Assembly: GCA_016199625.1 (NCBI GenBank)
Contig: JACQGI010000023.1
Location: 1-64,000, forward strand
DNA: 64,000 nt
Reading direction: 5' to 3'
Source: Acidobacteriota bacterium
Lineage (GTDB): Bacteria; Acidobacteriota; Vicinamibacteria; Fen-336
Shown here: in pieces, positions 54,938 to 64,000 of the stretch
Position numbering within the stretch: the first letter of the stretch is position 1
Layout of the letters: each line of letters opens with the position of its first letter
Translations under genes and position numbers: made by a program
Notes under the pieces: model-generated
The model's database searches: none
What the model saw: the letters and a program-made list of their open reading frames with translations, nothing else
Told to the model about the DNA's origin: nothing

Positions 54938-55630
54938 CTAGAACCTCAAGTGAACGCCGATGGTCGCGCTCGCCCCGGTGAGGTCGAGCTGGTTCTTGTC
55001 CGTGGCGCGGAAGAAGTCGCCTCCCATGTCCGTTTCCTTCGCGACCTGGTAGCGCACCTCGCCCGTCACGCTCAGGTCGCGGTTGAGGGGCACACGGACA
55101 CCGCCCGCCACGTGGAATCCGGGCACGACGCCGTCGGACACGAAGTGGTCCGCGAGGATGTTCAGTTCGGGGTCCTCGAAATCCACGAAGTCCCCGAACT
55201 CTTCGTAGTTCCAGAAGAACAGGTCCACGCCCGCGGCGAGGTACGGCGCGAGACGCGCGCGGCGGCTGGTCGGCACCAGACGGAGCGAGACGCCCACGGG
55301 TACGACGTCGAGCTTCAGGGTCTGGAGGATTTCGCGGCCGTCCTCACGCACGAATTCGCGGTAGGACGTGTCCACCTCGCGGCCGTAGCCGTCCAGGTGG
55401 AACCCCAGCTCCACGTTGCGCGCCAGCCGGACGCTGAACTCGATCCCCCCGCTCACGCCGCGGAAGTCCTCCTTGGGATCGACGTTGTACAGATCGGCGT
55501 CGTCGGTGAACAGGTTGCTCTGGGCTCTTGGAAAGAAGCCGCCGAGGCGCAGCTCGACGCCCGAGGCGGACGCGGTGGCGGGCAGAGCCGCGAGGAGGCC
55601 CAGTGTGGCGGTGACCAAGACTCGTCTCAT
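54938..55630 (-). CDS. Outer-membrane beta-barrel protein
   Basis: Signal MRRVLVTATLGLLAALPATASA; amphipathic beta pattern; C-terminal ATIGVHLRF (terminal aromatic residue). Confidence 0.75.
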   Translation of the reverse strand: MRRVLVTATLGLLAALPATASASGVELRLGGFFPRAQSNLFTDDADLYNVDPKEDFRGVSGGIEFSVRLARNVELGFHLDGYGREVDTSYREFVREDGREILQTLKLDVVPVGVSLRLVPTSRRARLAPYLAAGVDLFFWNYEEFGDFVDFEDPELNILADHFVSDGVVPGFHVAGGVRVPLNRDLSVTGEVRYQVAKETDMGGDFFRATDKNQLDLTGASATIGVHLRF

Positions 55631-55823: not shown

Positions 55824-55868
55824 TGGAGGCGGCGTCCGGATTTGAACCGGAGAGTAGAGGTTTTGCAG
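55824..55868 (-). other. 3' half of tRNA-Cys(GCA): probable attL of an integrated element
   Basis: Minus strand CTGCAAA|ACCTC|TACTC|TCCGG|TTCAAAT|CCGGA|CGCCGCC|T|CCA = anticodon loop (GCA), 3' anticodon stem, variable loop, T-arm, acceptor 3' strand, U73 discriminator and CCA. The D-arm half is absent. Confidence 0.85.
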
Positions 55869-55986
55869 AACGGACGGAGCACTGCGCGACGGGACGGCAT
55901 TCGCTCGAACCCGCGTGGATACTGGCCGAAACCGACGTGCCCGGAGGACGTCCCGGCCTGTTCGGACGCATGACAACCGATAGAAT

Positions 55987-56004
55987 GGGCACAGAACGGG
56001 CACA
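55987..56004 (+). repeat. Paired motif GGGCACAGAACGGGCACA
   Basis: Two GGGCACA units, 11-bp period; a related inverted copy lies at 61668-61685. Confidence 0.6.
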
Positions 56005-56016
56005 AGCGAACACCGA

Positions 56017-56050
56017 GGGGGCCCGGGGCGCGTGCGGCCACCGGGCCCCC
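56017..56050 (-). terminator. Stem-loop at the end of the element's minus-strand operon
   Basis: Perfect 10-bp stem GGGGGCCCGG ... CCGGGCCCCC with a 14-nt loop, 11 nt beyond the last gene; no clear U-tract. Confidence 0.5.
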
Positions 56051-56060
56051 AGGTTTCCCC

Positions 56061-56312
56061 CTACGCGGTGCGACGCTTCGACTCGAGGACGCGACGACGG
56101 GGGCGCGGCCACCAGTTCATCGCCCACTGGATCAACCCTCGCTTGTCGGGCTCGTCGAGCAGCGTCTCGAGGATCCGACGCGGCGTCCAGTAGATCGCCT
56201 CCCCCTTCTCGACGTCTCGGGACAGCGGGCCGCCCGCGATGCAACGCGCGACGCGGCGTAGCGTGTTGACCCGCGTCCGGGTGAGCACGAGAGTCAGAGC
56301 CCGGGGCTTCAT
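56061..56312 (-). CDS. Element-encoded hypothetical protein, 83 aa
   Basis: MKPRALTLVLTRTRVNTLRRVARCIAGGPLSRDVEKGEAIYWTPRRILETLLDEPDKRG; ATGA overlap with the upstream gene. Confidence 0.5.
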   Translation of the reverse strand: MKPRALTLVLTRTRVNTLRRVARCIAGGPLSRDVEKGEAIYWTPRRILETLLDEPDKRGLIQWAMNWWPRPRRRVLESKRRTA

Positions 56313-57154
56313 CGCCCACCTCCCGCCGTGGCCACTTGCCGCCGGCGTGTGGACTCTCGGCGCGCCTGCGATCGGCCAGGCACCTCCCGGATGAGCTTCG
56401 CCATGAAGGGGCGGTCGCGGAGGAAGACGTTGACGACGTCGGACGGCGACACGTAGGGCTTGCTATCCCAGAGCATCGTGCTCATGTCGCTGCCGAGCCT
56501 ATGCTCGATGAACACTTCCCATCCGGGGCGGCGCCCGGAGGCAAGCGGCCAACTTTGGGCGCGTCTCACGACGCCCGCGAAGTCTGCGACGAGCCGCGCC
56601 GAGGCCGCGTTCGCAACGAGCTGCGCGACGGCCGCCATGCTCCAGGGTGTGAGGGTACGGGCGGTGAGGGTGCGGGCGTAGGACTTCAGGATCCGCTGCC
56701 CTTCTGCGTCGAGCTTGACCCACCAGCCCCGTGGGCCCTTCTGGAAGAGCTGCCAGCGGAGGGCCTCCTCGCGGGACATCAGCCCGTCGCCGCCCTCCCC
56801 GGTGCCCTCGACTTGCCGGGCCCAAGCGTCGGCCTTCGGATCCCTCATCGCCTCGACGAGGCCCTCGAGCTCGCGGAGGATCTCGCGCCTGCACTCCTGC
56901 TCCCGCCTCCCGAGGGCCTCCAGCCCGTCCATGGGTTGCCGGCGCCGAAGGAACGCCTCCGCCTCCGTCGCCTCCCTGTCCCTCTCGGCGGCCACGGAGT
57001 GCGACACCATCGAGTCCGTTCTCGCCATGGTCCTCCCCTCGCCAAGTATCTGCCGCAGGTCGGCCGCCGCGGCCTCGCACTTCGCCAGCGTGAGGAGCGC
57101 TGCCTTCCGTTCCTCGGTCGGCCGCCTCCGCGTCCCCTTCCCGGTCTTCGCCAT
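56309..57154 (-). CDS. Element-encoded hypothetical protein, 281 aa
   Basis: ATG 57154: MAKTGKGTRRRPTEERKAALLTLAKCEAAAADLRQIL...; coupled to downstream and upstream genes. Confidence 0.55.
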   Translation of the reverse strand: MAKTGKGTRRRPTEERKAALLTLAKCEAAAADLRQILGEGRTMARTDSMVSHSVAAERDREATEAEAFLRRRQPMDGLEALGRREQECRREILRELEGLVEAMRDPKADAWARQVEGTGEGGDGLMSREEALRWQLFQKGPRGWWVKLDAEGQRILKSYARTLTARTLTPWSMAAVAQLVANAASARLVADFAGVVRRAQSWPLASGRRPGWEVFIEHRLGSDMSTMLWDSKPYVSPSDVVNVFLRDRPFMAKLIREVPGRSQARRESTRRRQVATAGGGR

Positions 57155-57192
57155 GCTCCACCTCCGGATTGCCCCGAGAGGAACCGGCTCTT

Positions 57193-57339
57193 TCACGCGC
57201 GCCGCGGATCCACGAGGACCGCGAGGCCCAAGCCGAACGCGAGCCCGGCCAGGAGCCGCGCGATGCCGGCGACGTCGTCAGCGATCGCCGCGAGGCCCAC
57301 GAGCGCGAGCGCCAGGCCGATCCCCTCCAGGCGAGTCAT
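57193..57339 (-). CDS. Small two-helix membrane protein, 48 aa (absent from the supplied ORF list)
   Basis: MTRLEGIGLALALVGLAAIADDVAGIARLLAGLAFGLGLAVLVDPRRA; two hydrophobic segments; directly preceded by a palindrome. Confidence 0.5.
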   Translation of the reverse strand: MTRLEGIGLALALVGLAAIADDVAGIARLLAGLAFGLGLAVLVDPRRA

Positions 57340-57401
57340 TAGGTTTACAACCTAGGAGTAACACTGGCCGGATGATCCCCCGGAATGGGGCCAGGGTCAA
57401 G

Positions 57402-57569
57402 CTACTTCTGACGGCGCCGGTAGGGGCGAGCGGGCTTGTCCCATCCGCGAGCCTTGCAGCGCGCGCACGCCTGGGGGGGCTTCGGGCCCGTCGTCTTCCA
57501 CTTGTGGCCGCAGCGCTCGCAGGTGCAGGACCACTCGAACGTGGTCACCTTGCGTTTTCGGATGGTCAT
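57402..57569 (-). CDS. Small zinc-ribbon protein
   Basis: MTIRKRKVTTFEWSCTCERCGHKWKTTGPKPPQACARCKARGWDKPARPYRRRQK; CxxC...CxxC. Confidence 0.65.
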   Translation of the reverse strand: MTIRKRKVTTFEWSCTCERCGHKWKTTGPKPPQACARCKARGWDKPARPYRRRQK

Positions 57570-57579
57570 TCGGCGGAGT

Positions 57580-58044
57580 CTACCCACGGCGGGACCCCTC
57601 GTCACGTCCCGGCGGAGCACCGGTACGGGATCGTCCTGGGGCCGGCACCGTGGTGCCCGTACGCGCCGACGCAGTCAGGAGGTCATCCGCGTTGGTCAGA
57701 TGCCCCTTCCGCTCGATCGCGCCTAGCAAACACGCGTCGAGGCGGTAGCGGCTCTCGGCCCGCCGATTCGTCGCGGTCGGCAGGCTTGGGTCGATCACCG
57801 CCCCGCCAAGCTCTTCGAGCCAGGCGTGGAGCGGCACGATGAAGCGCCCGACCTGCGTTGGCAGATTGCACGAGCCCTCACAGTAGTAGAACGCGCCGTC
57901 CTGGGTGTCGACCGCTTCGAGCGCCTCGATCCAGCAGAGCCCCTTCGCATCCGGCGGGAACAGGCTCCGCACGCGGCGCGCCTCGGCCGCGATCCACCAT
58001 CGCTCCACGACGGATGGATGGGCGGGTGACTTCCCGGCGTTCAC
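57580..58044 (-). CDS. Element-encoded hypothetical protein, 154 aa
   Basis: GTG start with GTGA coupling; GLCWIEALEAVDTQDGAFYYCEGSCNLPTQVGRFIVPLHAWLEELGG. Confidence 0.5.
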   Translation of the reverse strand: MNAGKSPAHPSVVERWWIAAEARRVRSLFPPDAKGLCWIEALEAVDTQDGAFYYCEGSCNLPTQVGRFIVPLHAWLEELGGAVIDPSLPTATNRRAESRYRLDACLLGAIERKGHLTNADDLLTASARTGTTVPAPGRSRTGAPPGRDEGSRRG

Positions 58045-58274
58045 CAGGCGCCCCCAGGATCGGCCAGCATCCGGGACGGGCCATCGCCCGTCTCGGCCCC
58101 CGATCGTGTCTCCGACTGCGTGCGCACGCAGTCAGGGGGGGGTCTACGGGACGCCCGACGCCGGCATGCGGCCGAGCAGTAGAGCGCACGCTTCCGGGGG
58201 CCGGTCCCACGCAGCCGGGGGGCGAACGGGCGCCCGCAGGTCGTGCACCAGGCGATGCCGGAGGCGGCGTTCAC
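58041..58274 (-). CDS. Small zinc-finger protein
   Basis: VNAASGIAWCTTCGRPFAPRLRGTGPRKRALYCSAACRRRASRR; CxxC...CxxxC; GTGA coupling at both ends. Confidence 0.6.
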   Translation of the reverse strand: MNAASGIAWCTTCGRPFAPRLRGTGPRKRALYCSAACRRRASRRPPPDCVRTQSETRSGAETGDGPSRMLADPGGAW

Positions 58275-58573
58275 GCGGGCTCCTTCGCCCGATCGCCCGC
58301 GGACCTCGAGGTGGCCGCCGGCTCGCGCGACGGGCTGCCCGGGGCGACCGCGTCCGTGGACGGATCCGTCATCGTCTCGGAGGGTCGCGCCAGGACCTCG
58401 GCCGGCCTGCCGGTGCGCCGGATCCGCCGGCAACGGGCGCACCGACGCGGAAGGACCCACCCCTTCTCGCGGTACCAGTCCGCCTCGCCCGCCGTGATCG
58501 CGAACGAGGCGGAGCACAACAGGCACCGCGAGATGGTGGCGCCGGCCGAGACGCTACCGCTCGAGGACGTCAC
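58271..58573 (-). CDS. Zinc-ribbon (zf-trcl-like) protein
   Basis: CLLCSASFAITAGEADWYREKGWVLPRRCARCRRIRR; CxxC...CxxC. Confidence 0.65.
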   Translation of the reverse strand: MTSSSGSVSAGATISRCLLCSASFAITAGEADWYREKGWVLPRRCARCRRIRRTGRPAEVLARPSETMTDPSTDAVAPGSPSREPAATSRSAGDRAKEPA

Positions 58574-59300
58574 CGCTGGTCGTCGTGAGGGCGGGGTCCT
58601 CCATCGGCTCGTGCGACGCCGGCACCGCGGCGAGCACTTGCTTGCGCAGCCCGGTGACCGTGATGGCGTACAGGTGCCGTAGCTCCCGCATGAGCTCCAG
58701 CTCCTCGGCCGTCGCGGGGTCGGACGTCCGCGCCCGCTCGAGGACCATCGTCAGCTTGCGGTCGGGGTCGACGAGCGGACGGAACTCCGGCGCCACGAAC
58801 GGGCGCTTCCCGCCGAACGACTCCACGATGGGCGGCGCGCTCTCGAAGGCGTCGATGACCATGGGGTCGGATGTCGCCAGGTACGCGGCGAGTCGCTCCG
58901 TGGGCGGGAGCGCCCGGGCCGAGGCCCGGATCTCCGCGAGGCGCAGTTCGTAGGCGATGCGTTCGGCCGGATCGGTCGGCCGGGCGATCGCGCCGCGCCT
59001 GAGGACCACATCCGCCAGGCCCTTGATGCGGTTGTCGAGCGGCAGGATCGCAGCCTCGATCCACCGCGTCACCAGGCCGAGTGTCTTGGTCACGAGCGAG
59101 AGGAGACCCTTGTGCTGGCCCTGAGGCGTCAGGTCCGGGTTGTCGCTGATCTCCGTGAAGCCCTGATCGAAGCTCTGGGCGATCGTGAGGAGGGCTCGCA
59201 GCTTCTCCTCGACGTCCTGGGCCCACTGCGGCCTCAGGCTCTGCCAGGTCTTGATGTGCGCCGGGACCTCGAGGCCCAGCGTGTAAGCAACGTTCGTCAT
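58554..59300 (-). CDS. Element-encoded protein following terminase, 248 aa, unknown
   Basis: MTNVAYTLGLEVPAHIKTWQSLRPQWAQDVEEKLRALLTIAQSFDQGFTEISDNPDLTPQGQHKGLLSLVTKTLG. Confidence 0.6.
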   Translation of the reverse strand: MTNVAYTLGLEVPAHIKTWQSLRPQWAQDVEEKLRALLTIAQSFDQGFTEISDNPDLTPQGQHKGLLSLVTKTLGLVTRWIEAAILPLDNRIKGLADVVLRRGAIARPTDPAERIAYELRLAEIRASARALPPTERLAAYLATSDPMVIDAFESAPPIVESFGGKRPFVAPEFRPLVDPDRKLTMVLERARTSDPATAEELELMRELRHLYAITVTGLRKQVLAAVPASHEPMEDPALTTTSGDVLER

Positions 59301-59373
59301 GGTCTTCTGCCCTTTCCTTTGTGCGTCGTTTGCCGTCGAGTCCGTCTGCGTCCCTTCGTTCGCCGTCCAGACG

Positions 59374-60792
59374 TCAGCCCCACAGGGCCTCCTTGATCAC
59401 GAGCGGTCGGGAGCGGGTTGCCTCCAGGCACAGCACGACGGCGCCGGCCGCCGCGTTGGCACGGTCGTCGTGAGCCCCGGGCCGATGGTCCACACGGTCC
59501 CGCCCGCTCGTCCCACGGCGCCGCTCCAGGCCCCGCAGCTCGCGGAGAAGCTCGGCATCGTCGAGCAACTCGACACGCCCGCGGCCGGCGTTCACCGCGG
59601 GCAGCAGCTCCAGGTACAGCGCGGAGCGGTCGCGTTCGCTGGCGTGGTACGTGATGCCGGCCGCGCGGAAGCCTTCTGACACGAAGCCCGGGGCGTAACG
59701 GTCGCCCGTCGTCTCGCGCAGGCCGTAGCGCTTCAGCAGGTCGGCCGCCTCGCCGATCACGCCCGAGGGGTTGAACGGGGGCCGCCAGGCCCGCACGACG
59801 TCGAGGACGGCGCGCTCCCCGACCAGGTGAGCCACGGCCGCCGTGAAGGCGTCCTTGCCGCTCCCGCTCGCGGCGTCCACGAAGGACACGTACCACGGGC
59901 GCGGCGAGTCCTCCGGGGCCCGCTCGCGTACGCCCTCGGCCACGCACGCCTCGAGCGCCTCCGGGTCGAAGAGCGTGGAGATGCCGGCGCGGAACTCGCC
60001 GAGGACCTCGCTTCGGTACGCCTCGGGATCCTCGGCCTCCATGCGGGCGAGGTAGTCGGCGGGGAGCGTCGGGTTCATCTCCGGCGCCGTGGCCTGCCAC
60101 ACGAGGGTGGGGGAGTCCTCCCGCCCGTGGTGCTTCCGGTGCAGCTCCCACAGGGCCCCGGCCTGCGCGTAGGGACTCGACAGGATCAGGAGCTTCCCGC
60201 CCGTGGTGGCGACGCGCGAGCGCACGGCCCGGAGCATCTCGCGGTCGGTTGGGCGCCCGTCCGTCGCGATGAAGAACGCCAGCTCGTCGACGACGACGCA
60301 CGCGGCCCGGATCCCACGGACAGCCGCGGGCCGGCACGGGTAGACCCCGAGGGACACCCCGCCGGCCAGCTCGAGGGTGTCGGCCGTCTCGCGGGCCACT
60401 TCCGCGCGCAGCACCTCCGACGCCTGGACGGCCTCGCGCACGTAGGCGAGTAGGGCTCGCTGGGCCCCGCGGAGGTCCTGCGCGATCAGCGGGACGTACA
60501 GCCCGCGCCGGCCTGCCATCACGGCCTGCGCGGCCTCGAAGACCCCGACCAGGGCCGCGACGTTGCTCTTGCCACTCTGCGTTCCCACGATGCAGGCGGC
60601 CTCGGGATAGCCGCCCGCCCTCGGCGTCTGGCGGCCCGTGTGCGCCCGGAACAGCTCGAGGTCCCGATCATCCATCGGCAGGCCGTAGACGGCGCGCAGG
60701 AAGGCGAGCCAGGGCCGCCAGGACGTCAGGTCGTGGAAGGCAGGTAGAGCACCGAACAGGTGCGGGTCGCTGAGGGCTTCGATGATCGTCAC
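59374..60792 (-). CDS. Phage terminase large subunit
   Basis: Walker A-like CIVGTQSGKSNVAALVG, Walker B ACVVVDELAFF, motif III LLILSSPYAQAGALW, nuclease YVSFVDAASGSGKDAFTAAVAH and HDDRANAAAGAV. GTG 60792. Confidence 0.88.
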   Translation of the reverse strand: MTIIEALSDPHLFGALPAFHDLTSWRPWLAFLRAVYGLPMDDRDLELFRAHTGRQTPRAGGYPEAACIVGTQSGKSNVAALVGVFEAAQAVMAGRRGLYVPLIAQDLRGAQRALLAYVREAVQASEVLRAEVARETADTLELAGGVSLGVYPCRPAAVRGIRAACVVVDELAFFIATDGRPTDREMLRAVRSRVATTGGKLLILSSPYAQAGALWELHRKHHGREDSPTLVWQATAPEMNPTLPADYLARMEAEDPEAYRSEVLGEFRAGISTLFDPEALEACVAEGVRERAPEDSPRPWYVSFVDAASGSGKDAFTAAVAHLVGERAVLDVVRAWRPPFNPSGVIGEAADLLKRYGLRETTGDRYAPGFVSEGFRAAGITYHASERDRSALYLELLPAVNAGRGRVELLDDAELLRELRGLERRRGTSGRDRVDHRPGAHDDRANAAAGAVVLCLEATRSRPLVIKEALWG

Positions 60793-61070
60793 GCGGCGCC
60801 GCCCTTCCCTGCTGCCTCGCGGCCGTTGCGGGGAATGTCCACCACGGCACCGGGACCGATGATGCGCAACCGGGGCGCGTGCAGCTCGGCCAGGGCCGCC
60901 CGTGCGAGCCCCCGCATCGCGCCGGCCCGGATGGTCGCCGGCACCTTCCACCCGAGGACCGCGAAGGCGCCCGCCAGCTCGGGCCACTCGGCGAGCGTTC
61001 CCGACACGCAGCCGCGGGCAGCTCCCTCCAGCGCCAGGCGTTCACGCTCGCTGAGGGGCCGCGTCGTCAT
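60789..61070 (-). CDS. Element-encoded hypothetical protein, 93 aa
   Basis: MTTRPLSERERLALEGAARGCVSGTLAEWPELAGAF; overlap coupling on both sides. Confidence 0.5.
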   Translation of the reverse strand: MTTRPLSERERLALEGAARGCVSGTLAEWPELAGAFAVLGWKVPATIRAGAMRGLARAALAELHAPRLRIIGPGAVVDIPRNGREAAGKGGAA

Positions 61071-61570
61071 GCCGCCTCCGGATCGGGGCCAGGTGAGGGC
61101 GACGCGACGGCGACGGCGGCGCTCGCGGGGCCCTTGCGCGTGGCATCCCTGCCCGCGAGGTAGTCGCTGAGGCGCGGGATCTCTCTCGCGCGCCGCTCCA
61201 ACCCGAGCTTCTCGAGGAGCCCGGTCAGGTGCGACGCCACCTTGAGCCGCTGTTCGACCAGCGGCACGAAGCGCCGGTATCGCCGGTTGATGACGGCCTC
61301 GGCGTTCTCGCGCAGCCACGAGTCGGCGACCGTGAGCAGGACGACGTCCTGCGCCGCGACGTCGAGGACCGTCCGCTGTGCCTGAGAGAGTCCCTCCTCA
61401 CCCCCCAGGTCCGAGGCCACCGCGGCCCGCCAGTCGCGCACGGCCCGGGCAAGCGCCGATCGGCCGTCGAGCGCCGAGATACCACGGTTGGAGAGGGCGG
61501 CCTTCGTCCGGTGAAAGCCGCTCTGCACATAGCCGCGGCGGGTCTTCCGAGGCGGAGGCGTGGGCTTCAT
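61067..61570 (-). CDS. Hypothetical protein, possible small terminase subunit by position
   Basis: 167 aa, basic N-terminus; part of the coupled operon shortly upstream of the large terminase. Confidence 0.4.
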   Translation of the reverse strand: MKPTPPPRKTRRGYVQSGFHRTKAALSNRGISALDGRSALARAVRDWRAAVASDLGGEEGLSQAQRTVLDVAAQDVVLLTVADSWLRENAEAVINRRYRRFVPLVEQRLKVASHLTGLLEKLGLERRAREIPRLSDYLAGRDATRKGPASAAVAVASPSPGPDPEAA

Positions 61571-61667
61571 GGGGTCGCCGGCCTCCCGGCTTGGTCAGGG
61601 CGGCACGCGGTTTCCTGAACCACACCCCGCGCTGAGGGCCGCGCCTGGCGCGGGTCCCGCGAGGCCC

Positions 61668-61685
61668 TGTGCCCGAACTGTGCCC
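61668..61685 (-). repeat. Paired motif GGGCACAGTTCGGGCACA (minus strand)
   Basis: 16/18 identity to the plus-strand copy at 55987-56004. Confidence 0.6.
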
Positions 61686-61781
61686 GTCCGGCGCCGGGAC
61701 GTCCGATCCTGGAATGCACCCTTCCGGAGCTGTGGTGATTGGGCCTGCTGTGAGCCCTCCTCCCCTGCACCCCTTCTCCCA

Positions 61782-61811
61782 ACAGAAACAGAAGTAGAAG
61801 TAGAAGTAGAA
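61782..61811. repeat. Five-unit hexanucleotide tandem repeat (ACAGAA x2, GTAGAA x3)
   Basis: Direct reading of positions 61782-61811. Confidence 0.8.
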
Positions 61812-61824
61812 GGAGACGCATAGC

Positions 61825-61867
61825 TGTCACATAGTCACGGCGTGACACCGTGACAAGCTCCGTGACA
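61825..61867. repeat. CCGTGACA repeat cluster (iteron/operator-like)
   Basis: TGTCAC-ATA-GTCACG-G-CGTGACA-CCGTGACA-AGCT-CCGTGACA: three direct copies plus inverted copies. Confidence 0.65.
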
Positions 61868-61894
61868 TTTCCGACACCCGATGGTTGCAATTCA

Positions 61895-63205
61895 TCAGAC
61901 CTCGTCCTCGGACAGGTCCTCGAAGCGGTGATAGGTCCCTTCGAAACGGACCTTGACGGAGCCCCGGCCGCGGTTGCGGTGCTTGCCCACGATGACCTCG
62001 GCCGTGCTTGAGGTCTCGTCCTCCTGGTGGAGGAGGAGGACGACGTCGGCGTCCTGCTCCTGGCTTCCCGACTCGCGGAGGTCGCTGAGCCGTGGCCGTC
62101 CGTCCTTGCGCTGCTCCGGGGCTCGGCTCAGTTGCGCCGCGGCGATGACGACCACCTCGAGGTCCTGGGCGAGCCGCTTGAGGGCCCGGCTGACACGGGC
62201 CACCTCGGCCTCGCGTGTTTCGCCACGACGGCCCGGGCCCGGGGGCAGGAGCTGCAAGTAGTCGACCATGAGGCAGTCGAGCCCGATGGCCGCTTTGACG
62301 AACCGGGCCTTGCACCGAAGCTCAAGCGGCGCAGGCGCCGAGGCCTCCACGATGAAGCGCCGCTCCTTGAGGGTCTCCGCAGCCGCGGCGATCGCGTCCC
62401 GCTCCCTGCGGAGTGGCGTCACGCCGTTGGGTTCGAAGCGGTCCGCGCGGACCCGGGCCTCGGCCAGGACCCGACGCCGGTTGATCTCGCGGGCCGACAT
62501 CTCCGCGCTGATCAGCAGCACCGTTCCGCCCTGCGCGGCGATGGCGTCCCCCAGGTTGGCGAGGAGCGTTGACTTGCCGAGGCCCGTCCGGGCCGCGACG
62601 AGAACGACTTGACCCGGCAGGAGCTGCCCGATCCGGCGATCGAGGTCTGCGATCCCGGTCTTGAAGCCCCGGCCCTCGCTCCGCGCCGAGGCCTCGAGGT
62701 CCCTGATCGCCTCCTCGATGGGCGTGGCGACGTCGAGGTTGACCTGGGCCCCGACTGCCTCGGCGACGCTCGCAAGCGCCTGCTGGCCGCGCTCCAGGAC
62801 CTCGTGGGCGTCGGCTGTGCCCGATCGCGCCATGGTGAGCATGCGCTCCGCGGCCACGGTGACGGCCCGCAGGCGGGCCCGGTCGCGGACGATCGCGACC
62901 CACGCCTCCACGTTCGAGATGCGGGGCACGCCATCGCCGAGGGAACCCACGTAGCCGACGCCGCCGGAGGCCTCGAGCTGGCCGCTCGTCAGCAGCGCGT
63001 CCCGCAGGGTGACGTGGTCGATCGGCGTGCCGGCCTCGTCGAGCTTCAGGATCGCGGACCAGATGATGCGGTGCGCGGCGCCGGCGAAGTCGGAGGGCCG
63101 CAGGGTGGCCGAGGGAAGGAGCGACGGGTTCACGAGCACGGCCCCGATGACGGTCCGCTCGGCCTCGGCGTTCTGCAGGGCCGGCGGCAAAGTGGTCGTG
63201 GTCAC
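61895..63205 (-). CDS. DnaB-like replicative DNA helicase
   Basis: QNAEAERTVIGAVLVNPSLLPSATLRPSDFAGAAHRIIW, GQVVLVAARTGLGKSTLLANLG, LISAEMSAREINRRR, DCLMVDYLQLLPPG, SDLRESGSQEQDADVVLLLHQED. Confidence 0.93.
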   Translation of the reverse strand: MTTTTLPPALQNAEAERTVIGAVLVNPSLLPSATLRPSDFAGAAHRIIWSAILKLDEAGTPIDHVTLRDALLTSGQLEASGGVGYVGSLGDGVPRISNVEAWVAIVRDRARLRAVTVAAERMLTMARSGTADAHEVLERGQQALASVAEAVGAQVNLDVATPIEEAIRDLEASARSEGRGFKTGIADLDRRIGQLLPGQVVLVAARTGLGKSTLLANLGDAIAAQGGTVLLISAEMSAREINRRRVLAEARVRADRFEPNGVTPLRRERDAIAAAAETLKERRFIVEASAPAPLELRCKARFVKAAIGLDCLMVDYLQLLPPGPGRRGETREAEVARVSRALKRLAQDLEVVVIAAAQLSRAPEQRKDGRPRLSDLRESGSQEQDADVVLLLHQEDETSSTAEVIVGKHRNRGRGSVKVRFEGTYHRFEDLSEDEV

Positions 63206-63957
63206 GCTGATCTCTTTCGCGGGTTCGGCATGGCCGTGCTCTGGTCGAGCGCGTCGAGCGCGGCCTCAAGATGCGGATCGTCGGGGGCCTCCGGACGCGC
63301 CACGCCCAGCTCGTTCGTGATCTTGTCGAGCGGGCCCTGGACCATCTCGCCGGACTGGCGGTGCCGATACGTTGGCCGGATCAGGTACTCGAAGGCCCTG
63401 TTGTGCTCCGCGCACCACCTCGCGGTCTCCGTGCTCCGGGCCTTCACGGCCTCGAAGACGGCCCGCATCTGCCCGAGGGTGTAGCCGCCGTCCAGGGCCC
63501 GCCGCGCCGCCTTGAGGTTTCCGGCCGTGTGACTCAGCCGGGTCCCGAAGACCTGGTTGTAGGCGTCCACGATGCCGGCGGTTTCGGCGTACGCGGTCTC
63601 GACGATGGCCTGCCGGTCGCGCTCGCGCTGGCGCCGCTTCCGCTCCGTGACCGTGTGATCGCGCTGGCGATACTTCAGGTAGTTCACGGCCAGGTAACCG
63701 CCGTCCACGCGGCGGACGCGACGCCCCCCCTCGGCGAGCGAGCGGCTGTGGGGATCCGGGGCCTCGAGGACGGCGAGGGCCCGCTCGACGACGTCCAGAG
63801 GAAGGTTCGCACGTCGCGCGATCCCCGGGGCCGTCGCGGGACACACGCCATCCGGGCCCGCCATCGCCAGGATGGTGATGAAGGCGATCCGGACGTCGGC
63901 GGGCTCGACCCAGAGGGACGAGTCGAGGATGTTGGTGTCGAGCTTGACGAAGGTCAC
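63202..63957 (-). CDS. Phage replication initiator/replisome organiser-like protein
   Basis: VTFVKLDTNILDSSLWVEPADVRIAFITILAMAGPDGVCPATAPGIARRANLPLDVVERALAVLEAPDPHSRS (HTH) and C-terminal AYNQVFGTRLSHTAGNLKAARRALDGGYTLGQMRAVFEAVK. Confidence 0.7.
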   Translation of the reverse strand: MTFVKLDTNILDSSLWVEPADVRIAFITILAMAGPDGVCPATAPGIARRANLPLDVVERALAVLEAPDPHSRSLAEGGRRVRRVDGGYLAVNYLKYRQRDHTVTERKRRQRERDRQAIVETAYAETAGIVDAYNQVFGTRLSHTAGNLKAARRALDGGYTLGQMRAVFEAVKARSTETARWCAEHNRAFEYLIRPTYRHRQSGEMVQGPLDKITNELGVARPEAPDDPHLEAALDALDQSTAMPNPRKRSA

Positions 63958-64000
63958 GGGCGCCGCTCCTCCCCGAGGGCCAGCAGTCCCGCGCAGACGA
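63954..64000 (-). CDS. 3' end of a further element gene (runs off the window)
   Basis: Minus-strand frame ending CAGLLALGEERRP*, with its TGA overlapping the GTG at 63957. Confidence 0.5.
   Translation of the reverse strand, partial: VCAGLLALGEERRP

Follow-up and report, generated by a model that had tools for sequence, protein, structure and literature searches.

A satellite-like element flanked by a duplicated tRNA-Cys 3′ half in a genome from the Vicinamibacteria

The window analysed here, a stretch of 64,000 nucleotides, takes in positions 1-64000 of C16, a contig of 124,185 bp from a Vicinamibacteria (Acidobacteriota) metagenome-assembled genome (MAG) of 1.37 Mb and 63% completeness; positions beyond its edge are given in C16 numbering, which continues that of the window. 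Towards the right edge, a host gene for an outer-membrane beta-barrel-like protein (54938..55630, minus strand) is followed by a displaced 3′ half of tRNA-Cys(GCA), also on the minus strand (55824..55869). The letters from 55824 to 55868 provide, on that strand, an anticodon loop (CTGCAAA), the 3′ anticodon stem (ACCTC), a variable loop (TACTC), a T arm with a perfect 5-bp stem (TCCGG-TTCAAAT-CCGGA), the acceptor strand CGCCGCC, U73 and CCA. A preliminary description of this DNA had parsed these 45 nucleotides as a tRNA-Cys 3′ half, and the position and all parts agree with our reading; its repeat does recur exactly, but is 46 bp long rather than 45 (55824-55869), the extra base being a T at tRNA position 31, and so spans tRNA nucleotides 31-76 including CCA. 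We treat the piece as a fragment because ARAGORN called no tRNA within the 64-kb window. Dinucleotide shuffles returned no chance match to the repeat in the window, even at three mismatches, and in 1.37 Mb about 1e-18 exact 46-mer matches would be expected by chance.

Beyond the fragment lies the left 8.1 kb (55870..64000) of an integrated element of ~10.85 kb, whose remainder, outside the window, runs on as far as C16:66627. On its minus strand are genes for an 83-aa protein (56061..56312), a 281-aa protein with no relative in the class or in viral contigs (56309..57154), a 48-aa small hydrophobic protein (57193..57339), a 55-aa zinc-ribbon-like protein with a homologue beside the large terminase gene of a sister element in genome G013 (57402..57569), a 100-aa treble-clef (zf_Tbcl) protein (58271..58573), a 248-aa protein predicted to be all-helical and with homologues in four other Vicinamibacteria genomes (58554..59300), a terminase large subunit (TerL; 59374..60792), a probable small terminase subunit (TerS; 61067..61570), a DnaB-like replicative helicase (61895..63205), a weakly matched DnaD-like helicase loader or replication initiator (63202..63957), a 99-aa weakly excisionase-like protein (C16:64121-64420) and an HTH regulator (C16:64417-64635). 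A divergent 238-aa protein is encoded on the plus strand (C16:64684-65400). The full gene order, read from the left, is 83-, 281-, 48-, 55- and 142-aa, treble-clef, 248-aa, TerL, 93-aa, TerS-like, DnaB, loader-like, 56-aa, 99-aa, HTH, 238-aa and integrase.

Both the ATPase and the nuclease halves of TerL were matched, its family profile hitting the ATPase of T4 gp17 and, separately, structures of TerL nucleases. The gene product upstream of it, in a position conserved in sister elements, has HK97 TerS as its top PDB fold match (E = 1.4) and TerS among several viral-library matches (E above 0.1), which are suggestive of a small terminase. Searches of the element against Pfam and PHROGs returned no portal, capsid or tail match, leaving the 281-, 142- and 83-aa proteins without assignment. 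Like the 281-aa protein, the integrase and the 248-aa protein had no relatives in viral contigs, and PADLOC matched no defence gene among seven unassigned or weakly assigned element proteins.

Searched for in the whole assembly, the 46-bp repeat has a single other copy, identical to the first, at C16:66628-66673, 2.6 kb past the window edge and 10,804 bp from the first (core start to core start); at 63% completeness, the genome may hold another tRNA-Cys elsewhere. This copy belongs to a minus-strand tRNA-Cys(GCA) gene that is intact (C16:66628-66703; ARAGORN and Rfam, 65.7 bits), with GGCGGCG as its 5′ acceptor strand, exactly as had been predicted for the right end. Both copies span tRNA nucleotide 31 to CCA, and the sequences flanking them differ. 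The integrase anticipated nearby is also there: a plus-strand tyrosine integrase (C16:65397-66545; Pfam 2.6e-14, PHROG 2.5e-41), whose gene ends 82 bp from the tRNA and which keeps the R-K-H-R-Y residues (R201, K226, H311, R314 and Y346).

Each arm of the element holds a pair of GGGCACA boxes spaced 11 bp start to start, on the left at 55987..56004 (plus strand; starts 55987 and 55998) and on the right at C16:66561-66578 (starts 66561 and 66572); the left-arm pair is probably an arm-type integrase site. The element has three such pairs, whereas 300 dinucleotide shuffles produced none. The third, inverted, lies between the TerS-like and DnaB genes (~61668-61685) and may be bound by the integrase too, or may have a part in replication origin function or regulation. 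On the element side, 7 bp after CCA, stands CAACGACTT, and the pattern CAACRACTT recurs at equal spacing after CCA in G013 (Phe), G076 (Leu) and G054 (Cys); with its preceding TT or AT, it looks similar to the IHF consensus, WATCAANNNNTTR. A compositional boundary was sought and rejected, as G+C content (71.1% in the element, 69.5% and 71.7% in the host) does not separate element from host.

In five relatives (G002, G006, G011, G013 and G016) the host order is kept as beta-barrel gene, tRNA-Cys, tRNA-Gly, YraN and CysS. Because homologues of the left-flank beta-barrel gene adjoin tRNA-Cys in these element-free genomes, at a distance of ~110-280 bp, the site there is, judged by gene order, empty and uninterrupted, and the element described here fills that gap. 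The comparison is between genera, among family- and order-level relatives, rather than within a species. G004 and G015 show this order only in part, consistently so where the beta-barrel gene is concerned, and in G014 the tRNA-Cys is differently oriented. No identical element was found in a close relative.

With an intact tRNA and a displaced fragment at its ends, a tyrosine integrase within and an uninterrupted site in relatives, the locus has the make-up of a tRNA island, and it is very probable that the ~10.85-kb element used its own tyrosine integrase to enter tRNA-Cys(GCA) in the region of the anticodon loop. The fragment at 55824 had been read as the left att site; the second copy, the intact tRNA, the integrase and the empty-site order in relatives all support that reading. 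The element would have brought its own tRNA 3′ half, from anticodon loop to CCA; on strand exchange, presumably within the anticodon loop, the host 5′ half at the right end would be completed by this 3′ half, so that the gene stays functional, and the original host 3′ half would be displaced to the left end (55824-55869). The element may also be excised as a circle. This is a textbook mechanism of an already known kind: the Islander survey lists 3,760 islands that have 3′ fragments, along with 2,083 sites centred on the anticodon (PMC4383910), likewise with a regenerated tRNA and a displaced 3′ fragment at their ends and with an identical mechanism; what differs is the target, here tRNA-Cys in Vicinamibacteria.

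Homologues of TerL, with ~33-72% identity where compared, were found elsewhere in the Acidobacteriota and in a few other phyla, some of them in elements bounded by tRNA-Phe, tRNA-Pro, tRNA-Arg or tRNA-Leu. The closest sister, in G013, is 15.9 kb long, has an integrase 70% identical to ours and is bounded by a 47-bp repeat of a tRNA-Phe 3′ half. Repeats in the 45-50-bp range bound the tRNA-Pro element of G031 (10.8 kb) and the tRNA-Arg elements of G053 (12.9 kb) and G066 (8.7 kb); the G024 element has a weaker, 29-bp tRNA-Leu repeat. Several independent elements of 9-16 kb share an integrase, a primase/helicase, a TerS-like protein and TerL, and in these no portal or capsid was found. Capsid-less elements in G013 (L022/L134) and G024 (L030) carry a protein of ~1,000-1,100 aa, the G024 copy matching tape-measure families, so tail-type genes are not absent throughout the group. 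By eye, a small protein in the G013 element also resembles a tail component.

Phage satellites are defined as 7-20 kb in size, with att repeats, an integrase, a regulator, replication genes and no structural genes (PMC13376191). Our element, with 10.8 kb between direct repeats and with integrase, regulatory and replication modules, and with no gene recognised for the portal, capsid or tail of a complete temperate phage, appears from its gene content to be satellite-like, not a full prophage, and likely lacks structural genes. Compared by definition, it is like PICI, cfPICI, PLE, PICMI and P4-like elements in size, repeats, integrase, regulator and replication, but differs from them in that it encodes a complete large terminase and, next to it, a probable small terminase. 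It is conceivable, if somewhat short of an even chance, that it represents an undescribed family of Acidobacteriota satellites, 9-16 kb long, which use various tRNA anticodon regions and carry their own TerS, TerL and replication genes without a capsid. If so, such satellites would package themselves into helper heads using their own motor, and the life style of this one may depend on a helper phage, with the element's TerS-TerL serving to package it.

Many described satellites have no TerL, and its retention here, with the ~1,000-1,100-aa protein of the G013 and G024 elements (tape-measure-like in G024), would fit a prophage that arrived by the same integration and then lost its capsid and tail genes. 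We consider such decay less likely than not, though the most serious of the alternatives, since all main genes are open, the integrase is intact and the same gene set is found in several independent elements, which random decay would hardly repeat. A small autonomous phage with capsid and portal too diverged to recognise is quite improbable: several proteins do lack assignment (281, 248 and 142 aa), but the coding space left to them is too small for portal, capsid and tail, the predicted all-helical 248-aa protein is unlike an HK97-fold capsid, and the whole 63%-complete MAG gave no portal or capsid family match (none to PF04860 or PF05065). As a hidden capsid the 248-aa protein was rejected, its model being helical and without a confident viral fold match.

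A search of 60 relatives, in which G054 was set aside for its assembly gap, gave fourteen further tRNA-Cys 3′-half fragments, spread over 10 genomes. All of them start at nucleotides 29-32 and reach the CCA end (nucleotide 74 in one). Judged by these fragments, tRNA-Cys is a recurrent integration target, or hotspot, across Vicinamibacteria. For the adjacent tRNA-Gly(GCC) in the same genomes, the matches listed include no fragment of this kind; the nearest is a piece of 31 nt where a G011 contig ends. Three fragments each are present in G005 (C70, L072: 6515, 7560 and 11328) and G039 (C45, L074: 2042 and 3088; C42, L073: 8760), possibly through serial insertions or as remnants; those of G005 lie 1-5 kb apart with no phage genes between them. 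Most fragments are flanked by ordinary genes and are therefore probably remnants of older insertions; G059 retains part of an integrase. No TerL was found at any of these other fragments, which look like other or older insertions, not the same element content.

Since the source is a MAG, and some relatives' contigs break or gap at tRNA-Cys, it must be weighed whether two contigs were wrongly joined in assembly at the tRNA half that is repeated. Such a chimera is highly improbable, given that the host genes on either side of the element keep their ancestral order and both arms hold matching GGGCACA box pairs. That the fragment is merely an unrelated decayed tRNA gene, as the commonness in the class of old 3′-half fragments without phage genes might suggest, is the least probable reading of all and is refuted by the second copy, which bounds an integrase-bearing element, as well as by 100% identity to the intact gene, the adjoining integrase and the empty site in relatives. 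In G054:C8 (L078, 7320-7712), a run of Ns lies inside the tRNA-Cys anticodon stem, with element-like sequence after CCA.

In picocyanobacteria, related integrases target tRNA-Phe or tRNA-Cys (PMC10187409), the same pair as here and in G013, a likeness of targets in other bacteria and with other element content. Within the class, the targets beside related integrases (Cys, Phe, Leu and Ser) all fit a preference for tRNAs reading UNN codons (A36-A37-A38); this rule failed a held-out test and was rejected, because phylum relatives also adjoin Arg(TCG) in three cases, Met and Val.

In the open-access literature we found no description of capsid-less, terminase-bearing satellites in Acidobacteriota. 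With the mechanism already familiar, interest lies in the satellite-like element family, which could comprise Acidobacteriota phage satellites, in the tRNA-Cys hotspot, and in having the exact ends of a mobile element from a lineage that is poorly cultured. A homologue of the 248-aa protein is encoded where a G005 contig ends (C42, L137: 5775-10416), with a treble-clef-like protein and a large gene of serine-recombinase type as its neighbours; this small module recurs there in an element of a different kind.
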